Assembly: GCA_950295325.1 (NCBI GenBank)
Contig: OX485804.1
Span: forward strand, 66,440,033 to 66,504,032
Direction of reading: 5' to 3'
Length of the DNA stretch: 64,000 bases
DNA from: Polytrichum commune
Taxonomy: Eukaryota > Streptophyta > Polytrichopsida > Polytrichales > Polytrichaceae
In this document: in pieces, positions 1,300-50,205 of the stretch
Layout of the letters: each line of letters starts with the position of its first letter
Numbering within the stretch: position 1 is the first letter of the stretch
Position numbers and translations under genes: made by a program
Notes under the pieces: generated by a model
Databases searched by the model: none
What the model was told of the DNA's origin: nothing
The model's input: only the letters and a program-made list of their open reading frames with translations

Positions 1300-3000
1300 T
1301 CTCTATAATTTTCTCAGAGGATTTAATTTCACAGAGACCCACGCACGTCATTTAGGTGGGAGCTTTAAATAGAATTTAGAAAAACTTAGCCTAGTACGAG
1401 TAGAAAATCATGACCAATCTCACTATATGTAAGTAGGTCCACAACACTTCATGCACTCAACAATGCAAATCACGGTAGTAAAAAAATGCTCAAATACCTT
1501 GAGGGAAATGGTATTTTCACTTGTTGAAGTTTGTTTTCATTGGCATGGTTGTTTGGCGACAAGATGTTTGGTTACAACATAGCACACAAAACAATGACAC
1601 CGACATTGGTCCACATTGTGCCCAAAAAGCACCTTTCAACTTTGCATCAAACATATTTTAGGCATATCCAAGAATATCCTTCGCGGTTCAAGGCATATAT
1701 AGTGAAAGACGACAAATTTGGCTATATGGCGTGACGTTGAAACCCATGCTCACGTCCATTTGTGCAACAAACATCGTTTGGAGCATCCATGAAGACAAGA
1801 GCAAAACGAGTAGGATAAGGCCGACCCAACTCTACCATGGAAATTTGAAGGTGTAGTAAAGCCTCTTGACGATGCAATTATTCTATTTAGGTGTATTGGT
1901 CATGAGGCCAAAAGTGTATGACAACCGTACATGATAGTTGGTTTTAGGTTCAATGTTGATTTCAGGTATACAGACCTCGTATCAATGAATTCCGTGAACT
2001 TTTCAAAATCTTCATATCATTTTAAAGTGGTATAGGGGTAATGATCGTGGTTAAGGAAAAACACATGCCATAACAATAAGATTGGACTATGTGGTCAAAT
2101 TATAGACACCATTTTGAGATCAATAGGTACCACAGTCAAGAGGGTATGTGTAATCACTCAAAAAATACACATAATCGTCACTTTCAAGTCTGGTATTTTT
2201 TGCATCTCGATTTCATTTTTGAAACTTAAAATGATAACCTTCACGATGGGCATGTGGCAATTGCTAACCAAACGAAAAATTTTCCAATTCAATCCAACGG
2301 TGAAAGTTACTTGTGAGGTTGAACGTGCCCATAGTAGGAGCACATACCTTTAATCGCAAGGAGGTCATACAATTCCATGGTACCTTTATTGTGCACCCAT
2401 ATTAGTTTCCATATTCCAAATTTAAAATAGTGGTGGTAGGTATTTTGTACTCATCGTATGTGTGTACAATGAAAGCAATATTTAGAGTGGATGTTAAGTT
2501 GGTATCTCGATTCACGAGGTACTCTAATGGTTTCTTATGAATTTCATTTTACGTAGTTTGGACACATTCCAACACCGGGAGTTGGTAACTTTGTCTTCAA
2601 TCAAATCGTATTCTTAAATTACATAAAATCATCCTTGTACTTACATTGGAATCCAATATCTACGTTTGCCATCGACATGGGATCACAAACATGTGAAGGT
2701 TGTGTACGTCTATAACTTGTATCTTTGTAGAAGTGTCCGTAGAACTAGACATGTCCTCCAAAACTCCCCCACCTCTTAGTACTTGGCATTTTTGTTGACA
2801 AAACACATCAAAGTGGTGGCTTACATAACACACATTCAGACTGAATGTGAGAAATATCAGGGAATGTTCCGTGGAATACTATCAGTCCCACAGAACATTG
2901 TTATGAATTTGAATAATGTTGTGTTAAAAATGAGACCTGAACCCATATCCCATGCGATCTTTGTGGTTAAGTTGTCTAAATTTGGAATAACTTAGTGCTA
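1300..3000. other. Gene-free AT-rich stretch
   Basis: Only short frames below 80 codons without recognisable domains. No repeat partner was noticed in the window. Confidence 0.5.
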
Positions 3001-3021
3001 GGATGGGTGGCCTCCATAGCA

Positions 3022-3402
3022 CTACACTAAATATGATGTTTACTGTCATATGGTATTTTTACGTCATTATGGTAACTTTTTGGGTGACACTTCTTATGAA
3101 TAAGTATAAACAGAGATTGTCATGGATGATGGATGAGTTTATCCATTGGCCAAAACCATGCCTTCTCTTGTCAGCAACTTGTGATGAAATATTGTCATGG
3201 ATAATGGAAATTTGGATGAAAATTTGCTTGATACGTGATAGTAATTGCACCCCTGTGAACATATAATCCCCCAAAAAATTTACAAGGAATGACAAATAAT
3301 GTTGGGTTAATATTTAGTGTTGGTGACACTATACCACACTTTACAATTAGTATTGAGAAAGACAATCAAAATTGGTGACACTAAATATCATATTCAATGT
3401 AG
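3022..3402. mobile_element. TIR element, CTACACTAAAT family
   Basis: Begins CTACACTAAATATGATG and ends CATATTCAATGTAG, about 381 bp. There is a second internal inverted 'ttagtgttggtgacac' / 'ggtgacactaaa' motif near the right end. No clear target duplication is left (GCA and CTT flank it). No coding capacity. Confidence 0.6.
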
Positions 3403-3639
3403 CTTTTTTGTGCACTATACTATATGATTACCTAATTGTAGTGGGAGATTTTGAATGAACCGGATTTTTCAAACCAACCATGTGGAAACCTAGGGGCCAA
3501 CTCTTGAGGGAGATAGTTGCAAGGCCAGGTTGCATGCGCATGTTCAAGGGATCCGTCATTGAAGGACACAATTGTCTTCAAGGTCTCTATAGGCAGACCT
3601 ACATAATTCCAACACACCAATAACATTCACACCTAATAT

Positions 3640-3990
3640 GTATTTGAGTGGTATGTGGTTTGATGTGGATTTAAGAATGGACACCAAAAATATACGTTTT
3701 TAGAAAAGATTGAACCATGTGTTCAAAAACTACTAACACTTTTAAGCTCAACAATCAACATGATTGTGGAGGGGGGAGGGGGGAGGACCCATATGACCAC
3801 TTAACAAGCACAAGAATCTTCAATTTGATAATGTATAAGATATCTATATGGGCTTCGAATATTGTGAGTTGGTATACGACTATCGTCACGGTTTGGATTT
3901 GGTAATCATCTCGCACAATTATGTGTTTCGTATCCTACGAAAAGTAAGTGGAGAGAGAGAGAAAAAAATATCCAAATAACACGCATCCAC
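3640..3990. repeat. Dispersed repeat shared with 47,725-48,068
   Basis: The two copies share 'ggtatgtggtt', 'aagaatggacaccaaaaa', 'ttttaagctcaa', 'aagatat..atatg.gcttcraa' and a downstream GA tract. Direct orientation. Confidence 0.6.
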
Positions 3991-4963
3991 CTCAAATTTG
4001 ATGATGTCCATTTCCGCTTTCGGAATTACAAAGAAAACTAGAGTACTTAACTCAAAGATGAAGCAACACCATGATTTACGCCGGTGCAACATCAAATTCA
4101 TCTCTTCTTCTTTTTTCTACAACACACCAAGCTCTACCATACCCAACCCGGTTTCCATAGTAAATGAACACCAAGTGTTTACCATATATTCAAGCTCATA
4201 TGTCTCACTTTCATGCATCGTGCATCATGCATCATGCTTTATTCTAGTTTTTGAAAGACTTGAAAGGTGCCCCCCTTCAAACTTTTGGGCTAAAAGTGAT
4301 GGAGAACTCGTGAGAAGATGTGGAAATACATCACCTCTTCTATCTACCCAAAAGCCTAGTGTAGGGATGTACGGTTCATTAATTGTCCTTGGTTGTTGTT
4401 TCAAGGTTTTCCGTGGACCACCCAAAAAAGGAAGTTATAAAGAGCCGTGCACTTGATATGTTGTGAGAAGTGTACATGAGCATATAACAAAAGAGGAGTT
4501 TCTCTTGTTATTTTCCTTTTTTTTCTAGCGGGGTGGGTATGTATGACTTTGTCTATAAACATTCCACCCTAAGGGCCGTTCGACACACAAACCAATGTCC
4601 ATGACTAAGAAACCCTAGTAGTTGAAATGAAGCATGTCGAGGTTATCTCGATGAACTTCCAAACACATTTGTACCCACGAGTCCTCGAGTGTACCATAAA
4701 GCTATATACCAATTTGACCCGGCCCTCGGCCAAACGGCATCTTACCATGTGGGATACTTCCACATCATTATAACATTTAATAATGCAAGTGTTGTCACAT
4801 TTTGATCCAAGTGTCGTGGTCTTCCGAATTGTATGTGGCCATCTCAAAATGGAGCATCATAGAAGAAAGAAAAGGAAAAGAAAAATAACGTCAGTATCTA
4901 GGTACCGGCGTGAATGTGAGCTCGTTGGCCTAATGCTAATCACAATTGTTCGCGATGCAACTT

Positions 4964-9966: not shown

Positions 9967-10130
9967 ATAACATTCTCAATCAATGTGCGTTCGTTCATGT
10001 GGGCCCCAGGAATATAACCATGGATGTCGCAACCAATGTAAATTATGCCTGAATGTGCACCAGCTGCGGCATCATATGGCAATGTTCTTGGGGTCCACAT
10101 GAACGAACACACGCTGCTTAATAATGTTAT
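9967..10130. ncRNA. microRNA-precursor-like hairpin (candidate)
   Basis: Arms 9985-10031 and 10065-10112 pair over about 47 bases around a loop of about 33. Most differences are G.U-compatible transitions, with only a few mismatches and perhaps one bulge. A weaker pairing extends outward to 9967 ('cataacatt') and about 10,130. The shape fits a young plant MIRNA or a small foldback element; I do not recognise the arm sequence as a known family. Confidence 0.4.
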
Positions 10131-10661
10131 GTACGATGGTTTGAACTTACATAGAATTTTGTAAAGTTGAACCGACCGAATGACATACATATTGTCATTT
10201 ATTGTTGACAAAGATCGGCATTTAAGAAGCTTGGCGGAGGAATAAGGTACAAAATGTAGAAATTATGGTTCCATTTTTTTGTTGCAAATTCAATACTTGG
10301 GCCGCTCGATGGAATGGGGATGGCAAGTCTTCTTAGAAAGTCTCAAGCAACTTGATATTTGGGGCAAGCCGAATGTCTTGAAATTCGATGATTCGTGTAG
10401 TTAATTATGTGGACCTCACACCCATGTACTTGAATCCATGACTTTCTTCTCAACTCTTAGGCCTTCAAAGTCTTGTATGTGTAACCTCTTTTTTGGAGCA
10501 AATTGCAAGTCAATTTTGGTGGTTAGCGTACTTAATTACCATTTTGGACAATCCGTGTATTGAGACTAACCCTCCAAGGTAGTCGAACTTTCATGACTTC
10601 CAAACCGTCAAAGTTTCGAGTTATCCCAAATCCCGCCAAAATTTGGCCAATTAAAGTAATT

Positions 10662-11026
10662 CCACTAAATAATGTATGAAGTGTCGCCAATTCTATTTAT
10701 CTTGCTCGATACTAGTTGAAAATAGCATGTGTAGTGTCAACAACACTACATGTAGTCCTATCAAAATTTATTATTCCTTGTGAAAATTATTGGGCATCTT
10801 ATATTTACAACATTGCAAGTATTGTCACTTACTACATGACAATCCAACCATCCATGACAGTATTTGATCACATAAATGTTAGTATGCTCAATTTACACAA
10901 AAGTGGATGAACTAGAAATAAATCAAGGATGACAATATTTGTGACCTTATTCATAAGCAATGCCATCAAAAAACTTAACACAGTGACATAAAATAGCATT
11001 TAAGACTAACCACAATATTTAGTGTA
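10662..11026. mobile_element. TIR element related to the one in PEPC intron 8
   Basis: The ends CCACTAAATAATGTATG and CAATATTTAGTGTA are degraded inverses. The interior matches 20,496-20,891 in order, including 'ttattattccttgtgaaaat' and 'acacagtgacataaaat'. Confidence 0.7.
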
Positions 11027-15961: not shown

Positions 15962-18900
15962 ATGGCGACTTTACAGAAGATGGCGTCCATCGACGCCCAG
16001 ATGCGTTTGCTGGTGCCCAAGCGGGTGTCGCCAGACGACAAGCTTATCGAATACGACGCCCTCTTGCTAGATCGATTCCTCGACATTCTCGAGGACCTGC
16101 ACGGCAAGGAGCTTAAGGACACGGTAAAATTCATGATCACCACATACCCTTACCTTATATGACACCTCTCCATCCAGGAAGAGTTTGTGCTTTTCTTGAG
16201 TTCGTTGCAGTCTGATTCTTGGGACCTGGGGATGATGTAGTGCATTCTTCGTGAGAATCTTGGACAGAGAACCGAACACTCATGGCTTTGATCCCTCGAA
16301 AGCGCTCACAGTTTCACATCGAATCCGTCCTTGAAACTTGTTCATGTTTTCTTCGTGGCTGGAAAATGTGATGATGGGGTTGTGAGTGGCTGTGGGTTTA
16401 TTGTTGTTGTCGAGAGATCGATGTTAGGGGTCAAATGTGAGAATTTTGGACCTCGATGGAACGGTTATTCGGATGTGAGTGGATGTGGTTTCAATGTTCA
16501 AAAGGTCAATGGTGGGGGTCGAATGTGAGAATTTCGGCCAGAATTGGGCTTAGATAGATGATTTAGTGAGGGGGGGAGTTCTGCTTTAGACTTGGGGATT
16601 ACGTACTCTGGGTTTGGTTTTGCAACGAGAGCATCATCGTCTTGGGAACGTGAAGGGAATTGAATCTGAGGGGAGGAGTGCCGAAATGATTGCAGTAAAG
16701 CTCGAAGAAGGTGGTAAGTACATTTGGAGAGTCCGGTAACAACAAGGAGCTTAGTAGTGTGTCTCTTCAGGTTCCTCAAGAGTTGGGTTTTCTTGCAATC
16801 TGCCACTCAGGTACTGAGACTTAGTGAATGTTGAGTTAGCAGAGTTGAGCATGTTTTTTCCGTGGCTGGGAAGGAAGGTTATGTGGGTGTTTCAACTCAA
16901 GGAGTGGATGTGGATTCATTGTTATCTACAGATCGATGTTGGGGGTCAATGTGAGGTTTTGGGTTAGAATTGGGTATCAAGGAAGTGCTCAACCGGCTCT
17001 CCAGGTTGACTCTCAAGAGTTGGGGTTCCTTGCAATTTTCCACTTAGGAACTCGAGGTGTACTACTTTGTGCTCAAGAATCTCGCACATGGTACTCATGG
17101 CTTTGAGTGGCTAGGTATACAACCTGCTCGCATCCAAGGGTTACTTTTGCGTGTTTTTTCATTGAATTCACCCTGCAAACCTATTCACGGATGGGCAGAG
17201 GATGACATGTTTTTGTGGCTGGAAGGAAAGTTCATGCATGTGTTTCACTCGCAGAGTGGATGTGGTTTCATTTGCTGTTAATAGATTTATGTTGGGTCAA
17301 ATGTGAGAATTGTGATCAGATTTGGGCTTAGGTAGATGGTGTAGTGAGCGGGAAATCCCTGCTCAGCCTTGGGGTGAGCAGTGCTGAAGCAATTTCAAGA
17401 GTGTCCGACCTCACCTTGGTCAAGATGGTGCACATGTTAAGAGTCCTGGTTAGTGAGAGTTTAGACATTGAACTGGGGAAAATGATAGTAACAACTTGTG
17501 ATGCGTTTGTGATGCCGATGCAGATACAAAACTGCTACGAGTTGTCTGGGATGTACTGCAAAACTGATGGCTGCGGTGACATTGAGAAGCTGAATCAGCT
17601 GTCTGACTTGCTCAACAACCTAGATGCAGGTGACTCAATTGTGGTGGCGAGTTCGTTCTCCCACATGCTTAACCTTGGAAATTTGGCAGAAGAAGTACAG
17701 ATGGGGTACCGTCGACCTGGTCAGCACAAGAAGAAGGGAGACATTGGTGATGAGAATAGTGCCTTAACTGAGTCTGATATGGAGGATACGTTCCAGCGGT
17801 TGGTGAAGCAGCTGAAGAAAACTCCACAGGAGATCTTTGAAGCTCTCAAGGACCAAACTGTGGATTTGGTTCTAACAGCACACCCGACCCAGTCCGTTCG
17901 CCGATCCCTCCTTCAGAAGCATTCTAGGTATGTATGGGTGTCCTCAAACATTCCCCATTTTTTTAAAGTATTTCAATTAGTTGTGAACAAGGTGTTGTTA
18001 GCCCATCATCCTTCAGTGGTGTAGTGGGTGTTCTCCCTAGATTAGTATCTTGGAGAGTATACAGTCAGTGAGATTTTTATTTGGCTAGTTCTTTATGTTG
18101 AATCTTGGTAGAGGGAAGATGGCTTTGTTTTAAGATAGGTAACAATGAGGTGTCGACTAATGAGAGCTTGCCACTTGACCATGCTTGGCACACAGTCATG
18201 TAAATGATGACTTTGATTCTTGGATTAATTTTTAAAGCTGGAATAGAGTGAATGTCTTTACACATGCTTAAGAATGCTATGCCCTCCAAGCACTCAATTC
18301 AAAGTCTTTGAAAATCCTGCTGTTTTTTATATAAATCAAGAGCACAATGAGTTGGCCTTTGTTGCTTGTAAGAGACACCATGGTCGCGAGTGTGGTGGCA
18401 TGTCTTTGGATTTCCAAACATTTTGTCATTCTTTTGGTTGTTCAAGGTCTGAAAGTTTGCTTGGAATCGGCAGGATCCGATCGTGTCTGTCACAGATGCA
18501 TCAAAAGGATGTCACACCAGACGAAAAGCAAGAGCTAGATGAGGCCCTTCAAAGAGAGGTATATCCTTGGATTGAGAGCCCTCTTATGCCAACTATGGGT
18601 TGTACTTGATCGAATGCAAGTCAGTCTGCCTAATTAAGTTTAATACGTATCTTCAACTGAATGCTTCGAGTTTTCTCTTGATTCTAGGGAATTACACTTG
18701 CTTTAATGATTTGTGCTGGTATGTTGGACAGATTCAAGCTGCTTTCCGCACTGATGAGATCCGGCGGTCACAACCAACTCCTCAAGATGAGATGCGGGCG
18801 GGTATGAGTTACTTTCACGAGACCATTTGGAATGGCCTTCCCAAGTTTTTGCGACGTGTTGACACTGCCTTGAAGGCAATAGGTGTAAAGGAGCGCCTGC

Positions 18901-21900
18901 CACATAATGTGCCACTTATCCAGTTTTCCTCTTGGATGGGTGGGGATCGTGATGGTACTGTTCACACTCACTGCTGCTGCTTTTTTTTTGGTTGTGAAAA
19001 TTAGGATTTTCAAATGTGACTTTCTGCTGCAGTTGCAAGACATGAACTGGAAGTGTGGGGTAGTACGACCTAGTGGGGATTGTTTTCTGTAGTACAGTAT
19101 CAAATTGTCAATGCAATGCAGTTGGAGAAGTATCCTCATTATGCATTTGAATGTGTCTACCAGGGAACCCCCGTGTTACACCAGATGTCACGAGAGATGT
19201 TTGCCTTTTGGCTCGACTGATGGCATCCAACATTTATTTTGCCCAGATTGAAGAGCTCATGTTTGAGGTTAGCCTATCTCAATACCCTATTTAGTGTTTG
19301 ATTTTTGATGTTGGCATCCTGTGCTGTGATATTCATCCTTCCTGAGTTGCTTTGTCAGTCCAAGGATAGAATTGTAACTTTTCTTGACACAGTGAGTGAC
19401 AGGGAAGTTTGTCATGTTGGTACTTTTTGCAGTTGTCAATGTGGCGGTGCAGTGATGAACTGAAGGAGAGAGTAGTGAAACTTGATTCCCCAGGCAGGAA
19501 GGAATCAAAGCATTATATTGGTACTACCACAAGCCATAAATCAATTGCATTTCATTTTCTCTCCTTGCTAAGATGTTCAGTATGAAGGACTGTCTTTTTT
19601 TTTCATCATCTGACAAGGACTTCACTGAAGCAAAGTTGCATTGTTTGATGGAATTCAGAATTCTGGAAACACATTCCACCTAACGAGCCATTCCGAGTCC
19701 TTTTGGGAGACATGCGAGACAGGATGTATTACACACGAGAACGTATGCGACAGTTGTTGGCCACTGGCAAGAGTGATATTAATGTCGAAGATACTTTCAC
19801 CAATGCACTACAGGTAATCACACAAAGGCACAGCAACTTAGGCCTTCACAAAAACTGGACACTTATCATATGTTGGACTTAACAGACAACAATAGAAGTC
19901 TAGAAGACTGGTCTGATTATCTTACCATACAGATCTGTTACAGGCACTGTATGCCCAATAAATTTTCCAATCAGATGGGGCTAAAAAACTCTCATAGCTG
20001 ACAAAATCTTATTGTATGGATATTTACACAGATTCTTGAGCCATTGGAGCTGTGCCATAGATCACTCTGCGAAACCGGAGACCAGCCAATTGCAGATGGC
20101 AGTCTTTTGGATTTCATGCGCCAGGTGTCTTGCTTTGGACTGGGTTTGGTGAAACTTGATATTCGCCAGGAGTCTGATCGCCACACCGATGTAATGGACG
20201 CCATCACAACTCACCTTGGCATTGGATCTTACCGTGATTGGTCTGAGGAGCAGCGTCAGGTATGTAGTATACAATTATTAGATTGATAAAATTTCAAAAT
20301 GTTTATTGCTAGCAATTTGAAAGGTGATTCCAAAGCACCAAAGTCTGCCTTCTTTGAATCCTGTATGCAAAAGTCAAGTTCTATTAATTATTAGATATTC
20401 TCAAAATTAATATTAGATTTATAGTTTGGTAGTTGTTGGGTCTCATCTTATGGAAACTATTCTATTCATGTGAACGTCTGAGTCATAAGGTGTATCTACA
20501 CTAATAATTGTATTTAGTGTCACCAATACTATTTGTCTTGCTCAATACAGATTGTAAACTGCCTGTGTGGTGCCACTAACACTATATGTAAACCCAAGAC
20601 TATTTATTATTCCTTTTAAAATCTTCTGGGCATTATAGATTTACAATGTCGCAATTACAGCCACTTACTAAATGATTTTTCATCCAAGTTTCAAATCATC
20701 CATGACAAAATGTCATTACAGAAGTGTTAGGATGCAGAATATACAAAACTTCTTTTTAATAATTGGTTTTTGGGTGAGCCAAAATTAATTTGGGATGACA
20801 ACACATGTAATTTTTTTCATGAGAAGTGTCACTAGAAAATTTACCACAGTGACATGAAATACCATATCAACTAATACAATATTTAGTGTAGTATCTTTCA
20901 AATTACAGGTTTTTTACCTGACAAGGCTTTTGTTCCTCCTGTGGAGAGGTCATGACCATTGGTGGAAAATTATTGAGGTGAATGTATAGGAACAATACAA
21001 TTTCAACAATATTGGTATCAAAACTGTAATACCTCTCATATTTTGATACTTCGTAGGTATTAGAAGATGAGAGAATCTTTGTATACCTGAGTTATTATTT
21101 CAGTTGTCATCCTATACAATAGATATACTTGAATAATCTTGTATCTAGATATGAAGTTTTTTGCATGGTATATAGACCCAGATGGTATCAAAAACATGCA
21201 AAATCATCATGATTTGTGCCTTGGTTGTATGGTAATAAATCAAAATGCTATGGTGGAAATCTTTGTTGCAGGAATTCCTTCTGTCTGAGCTTCGAGGGAA
21301 GCGACCCCTTTTTGGTTCCGATTTACCAATGTCGGCAGAAGTAAAGGATGTGCTGGACACCATGAGAGTAATTGCGGAGCTGCCATCAGACTGCTTTGGA
21401 GCCTACGTCATCTCCATGGCTACGGCTCCATCTGATGTTCTCGCAGTTGAGCTCTTACAGCGTGAGTGCCGCATTGCCAAGCCCTTGCGTGTGGTGCCTT
21501 TGTTTGAAAAGCTGGCAGATTTAGAGTCAGCCCCTGCTGCCCTTTCACGTCTCTTCTCAATCGATTGGTACCTCAACCGCATCAACGGGAAGCAAGAGGT
21601 ATGAATGAATGGCCAAGCTCCTCTTTCCTTTATTCACTGCAGCTCTAAAGCATACTCTGTGTAAGCATTTGCATAAGACCCACTCTTTGAAGTGAGCTTG
21701 ATGCAAAATCCGGTAGACCATGAAACATAATCCATTGCATGCCATGTAGGACTCCCATGTGGGTTTGTGTGTTCATTTAAACTTCCTTGGTCCCCTGGGC
21801 CCTTGATCTCTGGTTTAAAGTGGCCCTGAGCAGCATGCTGGGAAAGCGATCACTTGTAGTGTTACAATTATATTCCTGTTGAATTGTTGTTAGAGACATG

Positions 21901-24427
21901 TATCATACTTGCTGCACTCTTTATTAAATGAATAAGCTATGATCTTTGGGGTTCTTGGTAGTGACCAGTGTTGTGCGGGTATGGTCCAAGGTTATGCCAG
22001 TGAGTCATTGTCCAAGGATGTATGGGTAAGGATGTTCATCAATTATCTAGGGATATATAGGTGATAACATGGAATGTTTCAATGGTATATGTGCAGAGAG
22101 TAAGTTGGTATCATTGATATTAGTATTGAAGGATGTGATACTATCCAGGTCAAGTCTTTAGTATTCATGCACATACCTTTACTGATACTTGGGTTGAACC
22201 TAGATACCCAGACAACAACATTGGTATGAATAGCTTCTCATCTGCTGAACTCTTTGTCTTGCAGGTCATGATTGGCTATTCGGATTCCGGGAAGGATGCT
22301 GGCCGTCTGTCAGCTGCTTGGCAAATGTTTAAGGCACAGGAAGATTTAGTGAAAGTGGCGAAGCAATATGGGATCCGTCTCACCATGTTCCATGGCCGAG
22401 GAGGGACCGTCGGCAGGGGTGGTGGCCCTACCCATCTTGCCATTTTGTCCCAGCCTCCTGACACCATCAACGGGTCATTGCGGGTAACGATCCAGGGAGA
22501 AGTCATTGAGCAGTCCTTTGGGGAGGAGCACTTGTGCTTCAAGACGTTGCAACGTTTCACAGCTGCTACGCTCGAGCATGGCATGCATCCTCCCATTGCT
22601 CCAAAACTTGAGTGGAGGAACCTGATGGACTCTATGGCAGTTGCGGCCACTGAGGAGTATCGCTCCTTTGTGTTTCAGAATCCCAAGTTTGTCGAATATT
22701 TCCGGGCAGTAAGTTTATCTTAATATTAAACTGTGGGTTAAGGTCTAATTGTGCACTGTTGTGCCCAAGTATCAAATTCTAAGGGGTTTTAACCAATCGC
22801 ATTTTGACATGTGGCACTTTTGTAGCAGAGTTTGACTAATTGACACCCAACCTGACCCTCATGTAGCATAGTACTCTCCTTGTTGACAAGACAGGATGCA
22901 TTACCAAGGTCTTGTAGATGATCTCCAAGGTAAACATGTTTCATTTAAACACCAGCCTTATTCAGACACCTACTTTGGGTGCAGAATGGTTAATTTTTTC
23001 TCCTAAAACCAATACTTCTAGTATTACCCTAAAGGATTGAATATGACAGCTTGGTGGTGGGGATGGGTAGCCAAGAATTCTATGCTCAGCACCTACCACT
23101 TATATAAAGGCACATCTATATAACCAGCTTAAGAAGATTGCATATATACTCTTTGAAAATCTGTCACAAATTGAGGGGTATTCATTTTAATCTCAATTTG
23201 GATATTTGATGCAGAACTTGAGCAATAAATTTTTGTGGTAAATTGTTCAGGCCACACCGGAGATGGAGTACGGGCGCATGAATATCGGCAGTCGTCCCTC
23301 CAAACGTAAACCTAGTGGAGGCATTGAGTCACTGCGAGCTATCCCTTGGATCTTTGCCTGGACACAGACAAGGTTCCATCTTCCTGTTTGGCTGGGTCTT
23401 GGAGCCGCTCTGAGGCATGCAATCGACACCGACTCCCAGAACCTTGCCATGCTGTGCCGGATGTATGACCAGTGGCCGTTTTTCAGAGTGACAATCGATC
23501 TGGTGGAGATGGTGTTTGCGAAAGGTGACCCTCGCATTGCCGCGTTGTATGATAACCTTCTTGTGTCTGAAGAGCTCAGACCCTTGGGAGACGAGCTGAG
23601 GCGCAAATACGAAGAGACCAGAAACCTTCTTCTGCGGGTATGTGCACCGAAAATTTTACTCACCTTCCATAGAAATCTCCTTGGTTGTTCACATGAACAT
23701 TGATGGTCCCTAATTTGTCATACTTCGTCTCAAACTACAAAGCTTGTGTGCTCAAGACTTCCAAATCTGTTTTAGATCTGTTTTGATCCCCACTGTAAGG
23801 CTATCTCCTAAGCATCCGAGAGGCCCACTGCACAGGCACAAAAGTGTGTATTTGAGCTACGTACTTCCATTTTGAGCTAGTTGTCTCAAAAGTGACCTTG
23901 TCTAGTGCACTTTTCAGATCAGTTGAAAATTAAAGATTTGGGGTTCAGATGTGGCCTTGGATGCATATATTACTCAGAATTTTGATCATCAAACTCACAT
24001 CTGAGTATACGTTGTACACAATAAAGTCTTAAACCCATGAATGTGATTGTAGAAACTGTGTTCTATAGGTCGTACATGGAGCCCCTTAGTCCTTTTGCTA
24101 AGGGTTAACATGGATGGGGTGTGATACATACAGGTTGCGCGGCACTCTGATATTCTGCAAGGAAACCCAACCCTGAAGCAGCGTCTGCGACTGCGAGAGC
24201 CCTACATCACTGCCCTCAATGTTCAGCAGGCGTTCACACTGAAGAAAATGCGTGAACAGAACAGCTGCAAACTCGAGACCAGCCAGCCCGGGTCACCTCT
24301 CAAACCTGTGAAACGTGCAATGGAGTTGGTCACACTGAACCCAACCACTGAGTTTCCACCTGGCCTCGAGGACACTCTCATCCTTACAATGAAGGGCATA
24401 GCAGCTGGTATCCAGAACACTGGATAG
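15962..24427 (+). CDS. PPC: Plant-type phosphoenolpyruvate carboxylase (C3 form), 12 coding exons
   Basis: Catalyses PEP + bicarbonate to oxaloacetate + phosphate in the cytosol, replenishing the TCA cycle. Exons: 15962-16123, 17524-17927, 18474-18558, 18732-18954, 19164-19267, 19433-19520, 19659-19813, 20032-20259, 21272-21598, 22265-22708, 23251-23637, 24134-24427. All joins keep phase and total 2901 nt, giving 966 aa, the usual length of plant-type PEPC. Visible motifs: N-terminal phosphorylation site SIDAQMR with Ser9; catalytic VLTAHPTQ with His174; [11 protein letters not shown] about 596-606; glycine-rich loop [13 protein letters not shown] about 634-646; C-terminal QNTG. Residue 776 is Ala in IFAWTQTR, the C3 state (C4 enzymes have Ser there). 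The start has a good context (acagccATGG). Oddities: the residue at -4 from Ser9 is Gln where an acid is usual, and the region after about residue 890 is diverged. Identity is near certain; exon borders are inferred from GT/AG and phase. Confidence 0.96.
16330..17380. repeat. Diverged tandem repeat inside PEPC intron 1
   Basis: Intron 1 (16124-17523, 1400 bp) is the longest of the gene. Most of it consists of about three diverged copies of one unit. Anchors are a 'catgtttt...cgtggctgg' phrase near 16344, 16850 and 17206, each followed by 'agtggatgtgg' and 'gatgttgggggtcaa'-like phrases. A second shared phrase, 'ctcaagagttgggg', occurs near 16778 and 17012. Confidence 0.6.
20496..20891. mobile_element. 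TIR element (CTACACTAAAT family) in PEPC intron 8
   Basis: A 396-bp insertion between exons 8 and 9. It starts CTACACTAATAATTG and ends with the near inverse CAATATTTAGTGTAG, with a 3-bp direct duplication TAT on each side. The interior resembles the element at 10,662-11,026 (shared words around 'ttattattcctt', 'catccatgaca' and 'acagtgacat'). There is no open frame, so it is a non-autonomous MITE-like element. Confidence 0.8.
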
Positions 24428-25520: not shown

Positions 25521-26284
25521 CTAGCAAGCTCAAACAATGGCGGAAATGATGTTATCATGTTCTCATGTTACAGACATTAAATATTGGCAAACTTATGTCA
25601 TTGGAAAGTTCTTAAGTTGTGCATAAGTGAATGCTTTGTATGTTTATCAGATTTTGAAGCGTATGCTTTTAGTGGATTTGATGACGATTCTAGTCCCGAA
25701 GCTTGTTGCTTAAGGACAGGTTTTCCCAAGAATTTGAGACATGCAACAAGTTCTGGGACTGGAATAGTTTGCTACAAAATTAAATATGTGGGGAAAATAT
25801 CAATGTAGCAATGTTCCTGACACGATGATTTGTACCAATTTCAAGCATTAAGCACCAATGTTACCATGTGGCATAATAGGATTAGTCAATCAAATCGAAG
25901 TCATTTCCATACATATCTGAATTATGCTGTTTCAAAATACATAATCTTCCTACACTGCTTTGCTTTTGTGGGTCAACCTCAAGTAATGTCCTTCAAATCA
26001 GGTCTTCAAATATTTTGAATCAACTATTCTCCACTGCAGTGGAACAAATGCTTAACTCTTAACTATCCACACTCACAGTCATGAACATTGCCATGAACCT
26101 CATTCTACATTTGGTAACAGCTTATATTGAGATAGACAAGAATATACTTAACTTTGCTGTTGGTCAATGACAATAGTAAAACAGGCGCTTAATAAAATAA
26201 AACAAAAATAACATCTGTGTTTTTGTACACCAAGATGAATGGAGAGCATGTTCTCCCCACCTTGTTCATGTTTTACTAAGCGTC

Positions 26285-26760
26285 AAGGTAAGGTTACTTC
26301 CTTCCTTTTGGGAGGTGGGCTCCTTTGTTAGGTTTTGTGGGAGTTATCTCCCTATGGTGGATCTGTGGGGGTTTGTTCATTGTGGAGTTTTCTATGGTTT
26401 ATAACTAGGTATTTGAGGTATTTAATGGATATTTGGTGGATATATTTCATGGGTTTCTTGATTTCATTTGCAGATATGTTGAGGTTTTTTTATGATTGTA
26501 TTGATTGCTCGTAGATAGTTCCTTGTACTCTTGCCATGATGGTGATGAGGAATTGACATGTGGTTATAGTTGGATGTTTTCCACAATGGCAGTGGTGGGG
26601 AATTTGTCTTGGCAATGTGTGAATTTTATGAATTGGATAATATTTGATGAGGTTGGGGTTAATGGTGGCTGGTTGTAAATGGGGGCACCTAATACACAAG
26701 ATGTTAGGTTGTAGGCGGGTCATGCATGTGCATGAGGTGGAGAGGCATGTGCATTTAAGT
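26285..26760 (-). pseudogene. LINE 3' fragment, second copy
   Basis: The plus-strand text 'ttgggaggtgggctcc' at about 26,305 and 'taggtatttgaggtatttaatgg' match the LINE end at 54.6 kb. The minus-strand translation (LQPNILCIRCPHL, then IKYYPIHKIHTLPRQ) aligns with the RPDILSV and IQFIKFTYCHDRF part of that copy, but PD has become PN. It is degraded and its 5' limit is unclear (possibly to about 27,250). Confidence 0.6.
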
Positions 26761-27281
26761 AATAATTCTAGTACCGTTATATCTTGGGGTCAAGAGTTTT
26801 GATTTCTTGCATTAGTAAGGGTGTAGAATCTCAAATGTTTGTTCCATTGGAATGTAAGTACTATTTGATGAATGGCTTTATTATGACAAGCTATACAAAG
26901 TCCTTTTATGTGTTAGTCCGACTAGTAGATAGTAAATTTGGTCGAGTCTTGATTGCATTGTTTGGACCTAGTGTGGAGTTTGGGTTTGGATGTGTTTGTG
27001 TGATTTGTGCATCAGATATGTTGGGAGCCTTCCAAAAGTGGTTGGATGATTTGTGGTTGATTTAGTCAATGAAGGTCCATTTGTGTATGGGTATTTGGTT
27101 TGGGCAAGAGTTAGTTCAATCTTTGTGTTTTTTATTAACATAAGCATGGTGATTTTAGATTTCTCCTAGATGTCCTCTTGTTGAGACTCCTTTGAGCCAG
27201 TATGGTGTGGTGTGTGCTGCAGGGTTAGGTTTGGCTAGGGAAGTTCCATCATTTGCTAGCCAATCGGTTACACTGTTTTGT

Positions 27282-27475
27282 CTAATTAGTGTGGATTCCC
27301 ATTTGGGTTTACACATTGCTATAATATTTAACCGAGAATATCATATTTTTTTACTCAGATAACATAAGTAGTTCTTATGCACACTACTGAATACAATGTA
27401 ACTTAGTAAAAAATGATCATGTAGGTGAAAAGTTATAGTAACACATAACTCCGAATGGTAACCCACACTAATTAG
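27282..27475. mobile_element. Short TIR element, CTAATTAGTGTGGG family, second copy
   Basis: A 194-bp element with the same ends as 9,575-9,769. The flanks extend the palindrome (GTTTTGTCTAATTAG on the left, inverse on the right), so the true inverted repeat may be seven bases longer here. Confidence 0.78.
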
Positions 27476-27884
27476 ACAAAACAAGGTAGTTCATTTCCTA
27501 TGATGCCAGTGTGTGCTCTACCTTTTCTGTATTGAAGCAGGCACTCACCACACCCAGTGATCATTTCATTCTCTTCAGACACTCTAGAGTGACATCTTCA
27601 TCCGTCCATCAACAGGGTGTCATGTAGACACAAGAGAGGGAGAACATAACTTGAACAGTCTTAAAAGTGAACGTGAGAAGCAGCATCAAGTACTATGCAA
27701 TTAAAGCTGCCAAACGTAGATGTGTTTCAAAGATATGTGAATCAGGCCTTTAGTTGTGCTGTTCAGCCGGGTCTTTCCTAGAAGATGCTAATCACCATCT
27801 CTTTCCGCTTATGTAACCAGTTTGAACTCCAATAAAAAGCACTAACATGGATCACTGCAAACTAAGAACAAGAAACAACATGTC

Positions 27885-28092: not shown

Positions 28093-31060
28093 TCAATGCT
28101 CCTCATCTGCATCAACTCCAGCAACCCTCAAACTGGGAGATGAGGAGTGCCTGCGAGAACCATTAGAGGCCCTGGCAGTGAAAGTGGATGGGAAGGATGC
28201 TTGAGGATTGAACAAAGTGTGGCCTCCACGGGAATGACCGTCCATTGATTGATGCATTGACACTGAAGCAGGATTCAAAGATGATGTGAAGCTGTTGGCC
28301 TGGAGAATAGGAGGTCGTATGGGAAAGGGGGAAGTAACAGGTGAGTGTCGAGCATCTGCACGATGAGAACCAACAAAAGAGGTAACAGGATTTTCCACCT
28401 CAAAGCCAAGAGAGGAAGGTTTTGTTGTTGGCACCACTAGATTCATATTCAAAGTGTTGCCATGTGCCGCAGGTTGCCTATCGTAATGGATAGTATCACA
28501 ATTGGGATCGGCAGAACTCAGATCAAGGTTGAGATCTGGGGAGGATTTGAAATGATCATGAGATGGCTCATCCACCACATCACGGCCGTTCTTCAACCTC
28601 CGAGCATCATGACAAACAGCGCCAGTGCTATCCACTTTGTGGGATGGCAACAGAGTTACTGAGCTCTGACCTAGCTCACCAGATCCACGGAAATAATCTA
28701 ATGTTCTGCCCATCCCACTAGCATCCTCAAGGACTTCCTTTCCACTTTCAGAACCATTTGCACTGCCATGAGCATCTTCCTTCAGTGAAGTTCCCACACA
28801 AGTCTGTACTAATGCTTGAAACTTGTCATGGTTGTCTGGAATATTTGTCCGTAAGTGGGGATTTGCAGTCAACAGGCGAAGTCTGTCAGAGATTACGCGC
28901 TGCTTGTGCAACTCATTAGTGGCCCTTACAACAGCCTCTCTAGCTTGCATCACAGCAGAACAATTGAAGTCCGGGTGGCCTGCATAAGCTCAAAATCAGT
29001 GTTCATGAACAATTTCGTCTATAGAAACTGCTTAGACATAAGCTACTTATATTGTACACCTTGTAATATATTGAAAATGACCCAGATGAAGATAAGCAAA
29101 AGTGTGCAAAAGTAAATACTGGAACAGCATGCGATGTACCTGGTGGGAATGGCACCCAACCAATATCCAAGTCCTCTCGAGACTTGAGGCAATGCATGAA
29201 CTTCTCAACTGCATCAGCTTTGGAGATGTCATTGCCACCACACCAGAGGACACTAAACCCATTTGGATGCAATTGAGCCATATCTCCAGCTGCGCGTTGA
29301 CGCACAATCTTCAGAAAGTTTTGGACTTTTTGCACAACAGCCTCACGCTTAGCTTCTGATCCATGTAGCAGTGAGTCGATGTCCTCAAAGACTTCAGCTT
29401 GTGATTCTGAACAAGTAGGTGAATTTGCAAACAACAACCACCCTTCATTGAGAACAGATTCAGCGGAGATTTTTAAGTGCCGCAGCACAGGTGCTGCTGC
29501 ACAATCATTTGGGGAAAGTTGCAGCATTATCTCCCTCAGAAGGCCCGCCACAGGATCAGATAGAATTCTGGCCTTATCAAAACAGTACATGTAGAGCTTA
29601 AACATGCGAACTATTGTAGGGCAATGGGGAGGATCTTTGACATTCAGATTGCGATGGAGCGTGATTGCTTGTGCTATTTTCCTCTGCTCTGCATCAGAAT
29701 GTGACCAGGGTCTGGGCGGTACACCTCCAATATTATCAAACGTCAATAAATGTAGCAGTGGAGACCAATGCCAAAGAGCCATTTCCTTGTGCACATGCTC
29801 TCTTGCATCAACCTCATCCAGCATGTCTCTCACATATTTCTCTCTTTTTGATCGAAGCTCTGCCTCAGCTGCTGCCTTCTGCGATTCATATTGGGACAAT
29901 TTTTGCAAATATTGAAGGTACTTCTGCAACGCTGTTCTCTCTTTGTTGCGTGCTTCTAAGTCAGGATGACCCCCAGTCAGCTTGAATCTGCTCGTTGTGA
30001 GTTTCACAGCATTCTGCTCCTCTTCATCTGCATCAGTCTGCAAAAAAAATTGCTTCATGTTCAGAGCATGCACCATGACATCGCCTAGGAAACACAGCAA
30101 AAGAAAGTTAGAAGAATTACAAAAGAAGGTGCTAGACTGTACATATTGACCACTTTCATTGGCGCCAGATCCTCCACATACCTCTCTCTCCATGTACCAT
30201 GTTCCATATGAACTCCGCAAACCGGGTTCAATATGTCCCTTCTCAATAAAATCAGAGAAGGCCTGAAGGAAGGAGTCATGTTTTACATCAGGAAAGTTAC
30301 TTGGTAGCAACTTATATTGCATTAGGTACCAAAGTCCGGGACATGGAACCTCTTCAGGGCATTCAACCTCTGAAGGATCCGGGAACAAGGATTTGGCCTT
30401 ATCCCAAGCCTGCATTTCAACCTGACTCCTTGTCAACTGCATCTGCACCTGCATCTGTCCCTGTTCGACAACTGCAAATTTACCACTTTGAGGATTGCCT
30501 TCCACCTGCTTCTGGTGTGCGTGTGGAAGCTGAATTTCACCATGTGTCTCAGTAGAGTGCTTTTCCCTAGCCTCACGAGCAGAAGAAAACATACCCCGAC
30601 CTTTCAGTTTCTGAGGGCGTATTGTTATAAGCCTATCATCTGCTGCCTCCGTTTCTACCTCCACTTCGTTAGAAGTGTCAGTGTCCCTCAAGGCTACTGT
30701 TGACTTCTTCCTTTTAGCTCTTGAGGGCTTCTTCCGAGGATTCATGTAACCATGTTTGATCAGTATGTCCTCTATCTCACCCCTTTGTCCTTTACCAAAA
30801 ACAGGATATATTTTCAGAGCCGTTTTCCTGCCATCGTTGGTAACTGCAAAACAACCTTCGATCCTGTGAAGGTTCAACTTATTCTTGTCCTTAAATACAG
30901 TCTTACAGTATATGCAGAAAAATGGCTTCCGTCTGGAGCCATTAAGCTCCTTAGACCTTGCAACATGGTGGCATTCGCATGTCAGGTTCTCATACTCGTC
31001 AGTGTCATACTCTTCTTTGTACACTCGTTTGTTCTCCTCCATACGAGTGTGCTTCACCAT
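28093..31060 (-). CDS. Orphan C2HC zinc-finger protein, 887 aa, three coding exons
   Basis: Exons on the minus strand: 31060-30182, 30037-29140, 28979-28093. Introns of 144 and 160 bp have GT..AG borders, and the join gives 2664 nt in phase. Visible features: a single zinc finger C49-X2-C52-X12-H65-X4-C70 in a basic context; a Lys/Arg-rich probable nuclear localisation signal at about 107-119; a Gln-rich stretch before residue 230; a charged, probably coiled-coil segment at about 320-380; a long conserved-looking middle region; and a Ser/Pro/Asn-rich disordered C-terminal third ending in DADEEH. I do not recognise the family. The layout suggests a nuclear protein, possibly a nucleic-acid-binding factor, but this is inference. 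Intron 1 is a multiple of three with no stop, so retention would add 48 residues. Confidence is high that it is a gene and low on function. Confidence 0.85.
30038..30181 (-). other. In-frame, stop-free intron 1 of the orphan zinc-finger gene
   Basis: The donor reads GTATGTGG and the acceptor TTTTTTTTGCAG on the minus strand. The 144-nt intron contains no stop in the reading frame, so retained transcripts would code for a 935-aa isoform with a hydrophobic Phe/Leu/Cys-rich insert. The strong splice signals and the low-complexity insert favour removal. Confidence 0.7.
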
Positions 31061-49302: not shown

Positions 49303-49341
49303 ACATTGGAATCAGCGTTTTTGTTACCGTGGAATTCTCTC

Positions 49342-50205
49342 ATGGCCGTTAAGGGAGGCATGGATAAGGTGCACGAGGCGCCTGATGATCTGCAGGCAGA
49401 GTATTGGTTAATGTTCAGCCAATGCGTTCTCTCGGACATCACGATTGAGACCGAGAATGACACGACACCCGCACACCGGTGCGTTCTGGCCACGATGTCG
49501 CCTGTCTTCAAAGCCATGTTTAGCAATGATATGCAAGAGCAGACCTCGTCTGTTGTGAAATTACCGGACATCAGCACAGATGCTCTTCGAGTATTGTTGC
49601 AATTGATATACTGCGGGCCAGCGGGGGTTGACCACGAATCTCTGCAGAAGCATTGTCTGGAGGTTTTCAGGGCGTGCCACAAGTACAATCTATCGCAGAG
49701 CCGGAAACAGGCTTGCATCGCTGCAGTGATAAGCTCCATCAGCCTAAGCAATTGTAGGGACATCATGGAAACCGCGTACACATACGATGCGATTGAATTG
49801 TCGGAAGCATGTAAGTCATTTATTGTTGAGAATCTTCAAGCTCTTCCAAAATTTATGGGGACTATCATCTGTACCTTGAATCTGGTAACCCTCAATTCCA
49901 GTATCTACTCCAAAACAGCGGAGGTACATCCCATGAAGGTGTGGAGTGCAGGGACTATTGACAACATCAAAGCGGACATCAAGAACGTTCTTCAATGTTG
50001 TGAGCGAGCACGGCTTCACATTCGTGTTTACTTGAAAGCAGGAAGTTGGATAGATTTTGACGACAATGCCAAAATCTCAGACATTCTTGAGTCCTTGTCT
50101 GACAGTGACACGAAGATAACCGTTGAGGTTTTCCATCGCCACTCTCGAGAGTACTATGGCATGTTGAAGCTTGGTCCCGAATTGGTCGATGAATGTGATC
50201 AGTGA
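49342..50205 (+). CDS. BTB/POZ-domain protein, 287 aa, single coding exon
   Basis: The first in-frame ATG is at 49342 (MAVKGG); the open frame extends a little upstream without an ATG. A BTB/POZ domain at about residues 29-130 is of the SPOP-like kind: SDITIE, then HRCVLATMSPVFKAMF (Asp32 and His45 at the conserved positions), LPDIS and LLQLIYCG. A BACK-like helical segment follows to about 170. The C-terminal 115 residues (IRVYLKAGSWIDFDD, ITVEVFHRH) are not recognised and look unlike a MATH domain. BTB proteins of this type dimerise and hand substrates to CUL3 ubiquitin ligases in nucleus or cytosol; this role is family knowledge, not seen here. It stands alone, with a GA-rich duplicated leader and a short upstream ORF. 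Confidence 0.88.
   Translation: MAVKGGMDKVHEAPDDLQAEYWLMFSQCVLSDITIETENDTTPAHRCVLATMSPVFKAMFSNDMQEQTSSVVKLPDISTDALRVLLQLIYCGPAGVDHESLQKHCLEVFRACHKYNLSQSRKQACIAAVISSISLSNCRDIMETAYTYDAIELSEACKSFIVENLQALPKFMGTIICTLNLVTLNSSIYSKTAEVHPMKVWSAGTIDNIKADIKNVLQCCERARLHIRVYLKAGSWIDFDDNAKISDILESLSDSDTKITVEVFHRHSREYYGMLKLGPELVDECDQ

Follow-up and report, generated by a model that had tools for sequence, protein, structure and literature searches.

A solitary zinc-finger gene of Polytrichum commune, most likely domesticated from the accessory gene of a Mutator-like transposon

Introduction

In the maize transposon MuDR, the gene mudrB and the transposase gene are arranged convergently. In the part of the literature available to us, mudrB is described as the second gene beside the transposase of this Mutator-like element (MULE), with a function that is unknown (PMC6446971). 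VANC, an accessory protein of VANDAL MULEs in Arabidopsis, binds short motifs and strips related elements of silencing marks (PMC5735166, PMC10398659), and its targets evolved via tandem repeats in noncoding DNA (PMC5735166). KIU forms of the VANDAL accessory proteins bear an Ulp1 domain (PMC13317346, PMC6117577). MULEs have also given rise to plant genes: MUSTANG and FHY3/FAR1 were domesticated from them and are without terminal repeats (PMC3435246).

Here we analyze a gene in a stretch of 64,000 nucleotides (the window) from Polytrichum commune (assembly GCA_950295325.1, contig OX485804.1, positions 66,440,033 to 66,504,032). We conclude that a Mutator-like DNA transposon most likely gave rise to this window gene, which would be its accessory gene (ORF-B), domesticated and kept for the plant's own use; to this reading we assign a probability of roughly 0.7. 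As with MUSTANG and FHY3/FAR1, domestication would have started from a MULE, and terminal repeats are lacking. In contrast to those genes, which derive from transposases and carry MULE and SWIM domains, the window gene would derive from an accessory gene and lacks any transposase domain. As a domesticated transposon gene it would belong to a kind that is already known; its source, an accessory gene and not a transposase, would be unusual.

Results

The window gene lies on the minus strand and comprises three exons. Exon 1 (31060-30182) encodes residues 1-293 and is followed by a phase 0 GT-AG intron (30038..30181). Exon 2 (30037-29140) encodes residues 294-592 plus one base, and a second GT-AG intron (28980..29139) separates it from exon 3 (28979-28093). 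Donor sites read GTATGT and GTACAT, acceptor sites TTTTTTGCAG and TTATGCAG; all four are canonical. Splicing yields 2664 nt with an open frame of 887 amino acids and a stop, so that the exon joins of the first-pass annotation hold in coordinates, strand, and splice sites. Because an in-frame stop lies upstream, the ATG at 31060 is the first Met of this frame.

Exon 1 specifies a finger module, a basic patch, a Q-rich linker, and the beginning of a conserved pre-core. Exon 2 encodes a coiled coil and the core domain. Exon 3 has a brief conserved beginning and continues, up to the stop, as a low-complexity tail rich in serine and histidine, with no Ulp1 domain. The finger ligands (30851..30916, minus strand), read directly from the sequence, are spaced C49-X2-C52-X12-H65-X4-C70. 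Profile matches of the N-terminus to the PDB were nearly all C2H2 fingers, and the zf-C2H2 Pfam model, with its two His, did not reach the cut-off. We read the finger as a C2HC variant of the C2H2 type, with Cys70 as last ligand in place of the second His, as had been described before. The basic patch PRKKPSRAKRKK (residues ~108-119; 30704..30739, minus strand) is a possible nuclear localization signal. A long helix at residues ~320-392 (29741..29959, minus strand) was the sole confident part of the protein in a single-sequence AlphaFold model (pLDDT 60-91) and fits a coiled coil. The core ends in the motif REDLDIG, which sequence alignment places at residues 579-585 (29162..29182, minus strand). 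The order proposed earlier (finger, basic patch, Q-rich linker, coiled coil, globular region, tail) agrees with the sequence and with the helix model. The protein also looks nuclear, as had been remarked, and such a location may be presumed from these features.

Searches for a named family gave no placement for the protein or its core, in line with the initial reading. In Pfam, nothing reached the cut-off with the window protein; the top match was DUF4187 (E 0.0043; 17.3 versus the 29 bits needed), and MULE transposase and SWIM domains were absent. Nor did any Pfam family exceed the cut-off for the core set or the Ulp1 set. A PDB sequence search with the window protein returned no convincing chain, and the core likewise gave no sequence or profile match. 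AlphaFold models computed without an alignment reached pLDDT 46 and 38, too low for a fold search of the core. Viral and bacterial/archaeal collections held no core relative, and we found no description in the literature of a MULE accessory family with this finger and core.

Relatives were abundant within the genome itself (408 Mb in 64 contigs, nearly all of it in the seven largest). At the DNA level the window gene is single-copy, as judged with exon 2 as query. A protein search with residues ~290-560 recovered 48 further loci at 24-31% identity (E down to 1e-21), and the exon 1 protein matched ~140 stretches at ~130 places, several of which covered the entire finger module. The gene had been called an orphan. 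This description does not stand: between ~50 and ~130 sites of its own genome hold homologues of the finger module and long globular region, and in every case whose surroundings were read these homologues belonged to Mutator-like transposons. The window protein is at most ~30% identical to any of them.

The window protein and its relatives have in common the finger ligands, DKN/LKxYP, WxWSP, PWxH, CP, and REDxDIG. Both the finger-module motifs of the ORF-B family (EY...DKN...H and LKxYP) and its core motifs are present in the window protein, which keeps most of the positions in finger and core that do not vary among the transposon relatives. Among MULE relatives, the Cys pair and the His of the finger are invariant, and the final Cys is retained at a spacing of 4-5 residues. 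Within REDLDIG, the residues R, E, D, I, and G do not vary across the four aligned MULE families; a further family, E, has HREDLDIG. The MULE relatives also have a candidate GT donor (assigned, like all ORF-B donors here, from consensus and reading frame) of equal phase and within ~two codons of intron 1, just after a WY motif. The equal phase and near-identical place speak for descent at the DNA level. The position of intron 2 differs from that of the candidate second intron of MULE ORF-B.

Were the window gene an ordinary plant C2H2-type transcription factor, its C2H2-like finger would be expected, and its likeness to MULE genes would come from that finger alone. However, the core matches independently of the finger, at E values down to the minimum given above, and the REDxDIG motif and intron phase match MULE genes as well. 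The core alignment refutes this explanation, and we regard its probability as negligible.

The surroundings of representative loci were examined over 10-30 kb. The relatives sit in repeated units whose copies are 94-99% identical; where the ends could be placed, a unit measures ~12-13 kb. Family C units are bounded by terminal inverted repeats of 80 bp, which are 94-95% alike, and are flanked by 9-bp target duplications (GTACACTTA, GAGGTGGAA). Facing repeat pairs enclose eight ORF-B copies, and the spacing is 11.1-12.4 kb in six of the eight. A MULE transposase domain lies 4.7-6.0 kb away at 13 of the 49 transposon-type loci (~0.4 expected by chance), convergent with ORF-B in every case. One exon of the transposase gene matches the Pfam MULE model with an E of 1.2e-5, just under the cut-off, which was passed at several ORF-B loci when the model was searched genome-wide; the next exon encodes a SWIM-like C-x-C...C-x-H. 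Those relatives whose surroundings were read are thus ORF-B accessory genes, carried by Mutator-like elements with a MuDR-like layout. The window gene had been put forward as an undescribed factor with no connections; given relatives that are accessory genes convergent to a transposase, it is better read as transposon-derived.

At least three families (A, C, and D) have an ORF-B whose 3' portion shows the His-Asp-Gln-Cys pattern known from Ulp1 proteases; Ulp1/SENP structures were matched with a best E of 4e-6. Family E (L069, G000:C5:26496000-26505000, and >50 other places) has the finger, the core, HREDLDIG, and a convergent SWIM-type transposase, and no Ulp1 is visible in its ORF-B. Since Ulp1 is present in A, C, and D and not seen in E, it does not define the ORF-B family as a whole, and its absence from the window protein need not mean loss, as family E also appears to be without it. 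Homology extends to the transposases, which are related to one another in A, C, and E. From these sequences, transposase and ORF-B thus seem to be an old pair, apparently travelling together since before the three families split.

Other features of the transposon loci were recorded. Tandem repeats with periods of ~57-bp and ~350-bp lie upstream of ORF-B in families B and A (family B, L026, oriented, ~2000-3100; family A, G000:C6:39256000-39285999, offsets ~10000-10980). The same C6 interval contains, at offsets 2506-4088, sequence ~89% identical to the mid region and Ulp1 of family D; this family D-like piece and the element of family A are separated by a few kb, so that elements of two families adjoin there. 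A locus at C2:64.169 Mb was considered as a full-length second gene and rejected: its frame contains a stop, and it belongs with family C as an old relative.

A search of the window found no Ulp1, transposase, or known terminal repeat. Around the window gene we detected neither terminal inverted repeats with a 9-bp target duplication nor convincing bracketing inverted repeats, and the closest MULE-domain match, among the matches listed, is 1.47 Mb off. The 5' flank is unique; the 3' flank holds dispersed repeats that are unrelated. At 27269-27488 is a MITE-like foldback repeat of ~220 bp, with 81-bp arms that are 75% complementary; its copies in the genome number at least 30. At ~26190-27235 there is an older dispersed repeat with copies on contigs C1, C2, C3, and C5 at 68-76% identity. 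The window also contains ordinary plant genes on the plus strand, namely PEP carboxylase exons (17332-22720; Pfam E down to 1.4e-71) and a BTB/POZ frame (49303-50202; E 1.4e-20).

As all relatives read in context are transposon genes, the window gene might itself be all that survives of an old MULE lineage, its frame still open through luck or because it inserted recently, and have no host function. Against this stand the missing transposase, protease, terminal repeats, and bracketing repeats, together with the lack of a close relative anywhere in the genome. A tree built from 49 rows of the core placed the window row alone on a branch of 1.81 and all others in young clusters (median end branch 0.017). 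Simulated neutral decay of 0.05 substitutions per site broke the frame with a stop in 199 of 200 runs. That so lone and strongly diverged a frame is intact suggests that it has been kept by selection, and we consider a functionless remnant quite improbable.

A second solitary gene, at 22.246 Mb on contig C3 (G000:C3:22245500-22248600, L070), is intact as well, with a 499-codon frame in its finger exon and a 354-codon frame in its core exon. Its closest genomic relative is ~31-34% identical, and among the matches listed no MULE-domain match lies near it. A tree of finger and core placed the C3 gene with family E and the window gene with families A-D (100/100), as a lone long branch at the A-D base; a clade of the two solitary genes was rejected (p-AU 1.5e-79). 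A previous tree that had only family E as outgroup put the window row inside A-D (97/99). Given these differing positions, and a rooting that relies on very long branches, the exact place of the window gene relative to A-D is unsure.

A lone branch at the base of A-D would also fit a host ancestor: an old plant gene, from which both solitary genes descend, would have been picked up and multiplied by MULEs, with the transposon copies derived. Transduplicated Ulp1 sequences and host genes are indeed known in MULEs (PMC13317346). However, because the solitary genes form no clade and transposase and ORF-B co-occur in A, C, and E, two captures would be required, each from a different paralogue and both into the same convergent place beside homologous transposases. 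Two domestications are simpler, since transposase and ORF-B seem to have been paired since before the families split. We therefore hold capture from a host gene to be unlikely, and the C3 gene is, by its sequence, possibly a second domesticated gene.

Discussion

The window gene has the marks of a domesticated gene: it is single copy, it lacks detectable features of transposition, and its frame is intact. Under our preferred explanation, a MULE ORF-B with finger, coiled coil and core, and REDxDIG would have turned into a host gene, leaving a copy without detectable transposase, protease, or terminal repeats. The protein would be located in the nucleus, dimerize via its coiled coil, and contact DNA through its single finger and basic patch. 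Its present role may be that of a transcription or chromatin regulator.

Comparison with described systems informs what such proteins might do. The ORF-B relatives resemble VANC and KIU in being MULE accessory proteins, some with Ulp1 (PMC13317346). Families A and B have tandem repeats 5' of ORF-B, as VANC targets do, a likeness of layout only. By analogy, MULE ORF-B proteins may act as VANC and KIU do, in sequence-specific anti-silencing. VANC differs in having DUF1985/DUF287, whereas the window protein is without Ulp1 and outside any transposon. DUF1985 had no Pfam match in the window protein or the core set, and its best match genome-wide (E 0.95) was below the cut-off; membership in the VANC family via DUF1985 is not supported. 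In its position as second gene beside a MULE transposase, ORF-B recalls mudrB as described in the text available to us. The window finger and core are not part of that text's description of MURB, with which we compare the window protein by description only.

A plausible special case is that motifs bound by the MULE proteins would also be bound by the window protein, which, being protease-free, would act as an antagonist of those proteins. In its fullest form, which we offer as a tentative and rather doubtful proposal, two MULE clades each gave the plant an accessory protein as a host gene, and the protease-free protein may compete at the same DNA motifs, restraining MULEs or regulating host genes.

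Known Mutator-derived plant genes come from the transposase, and a gene derived from an accessory protein would be a different source of regulators. The window gene would offer a handle on the role of MULE accessory proteins, a question that has stood since mudrB and has been partly answered by VANC. The same organism contains young related elements that show facing repeats and target duplications and retain many intact frames, and the paired transposon protein can be compared there with its putative domesticated counterpart.
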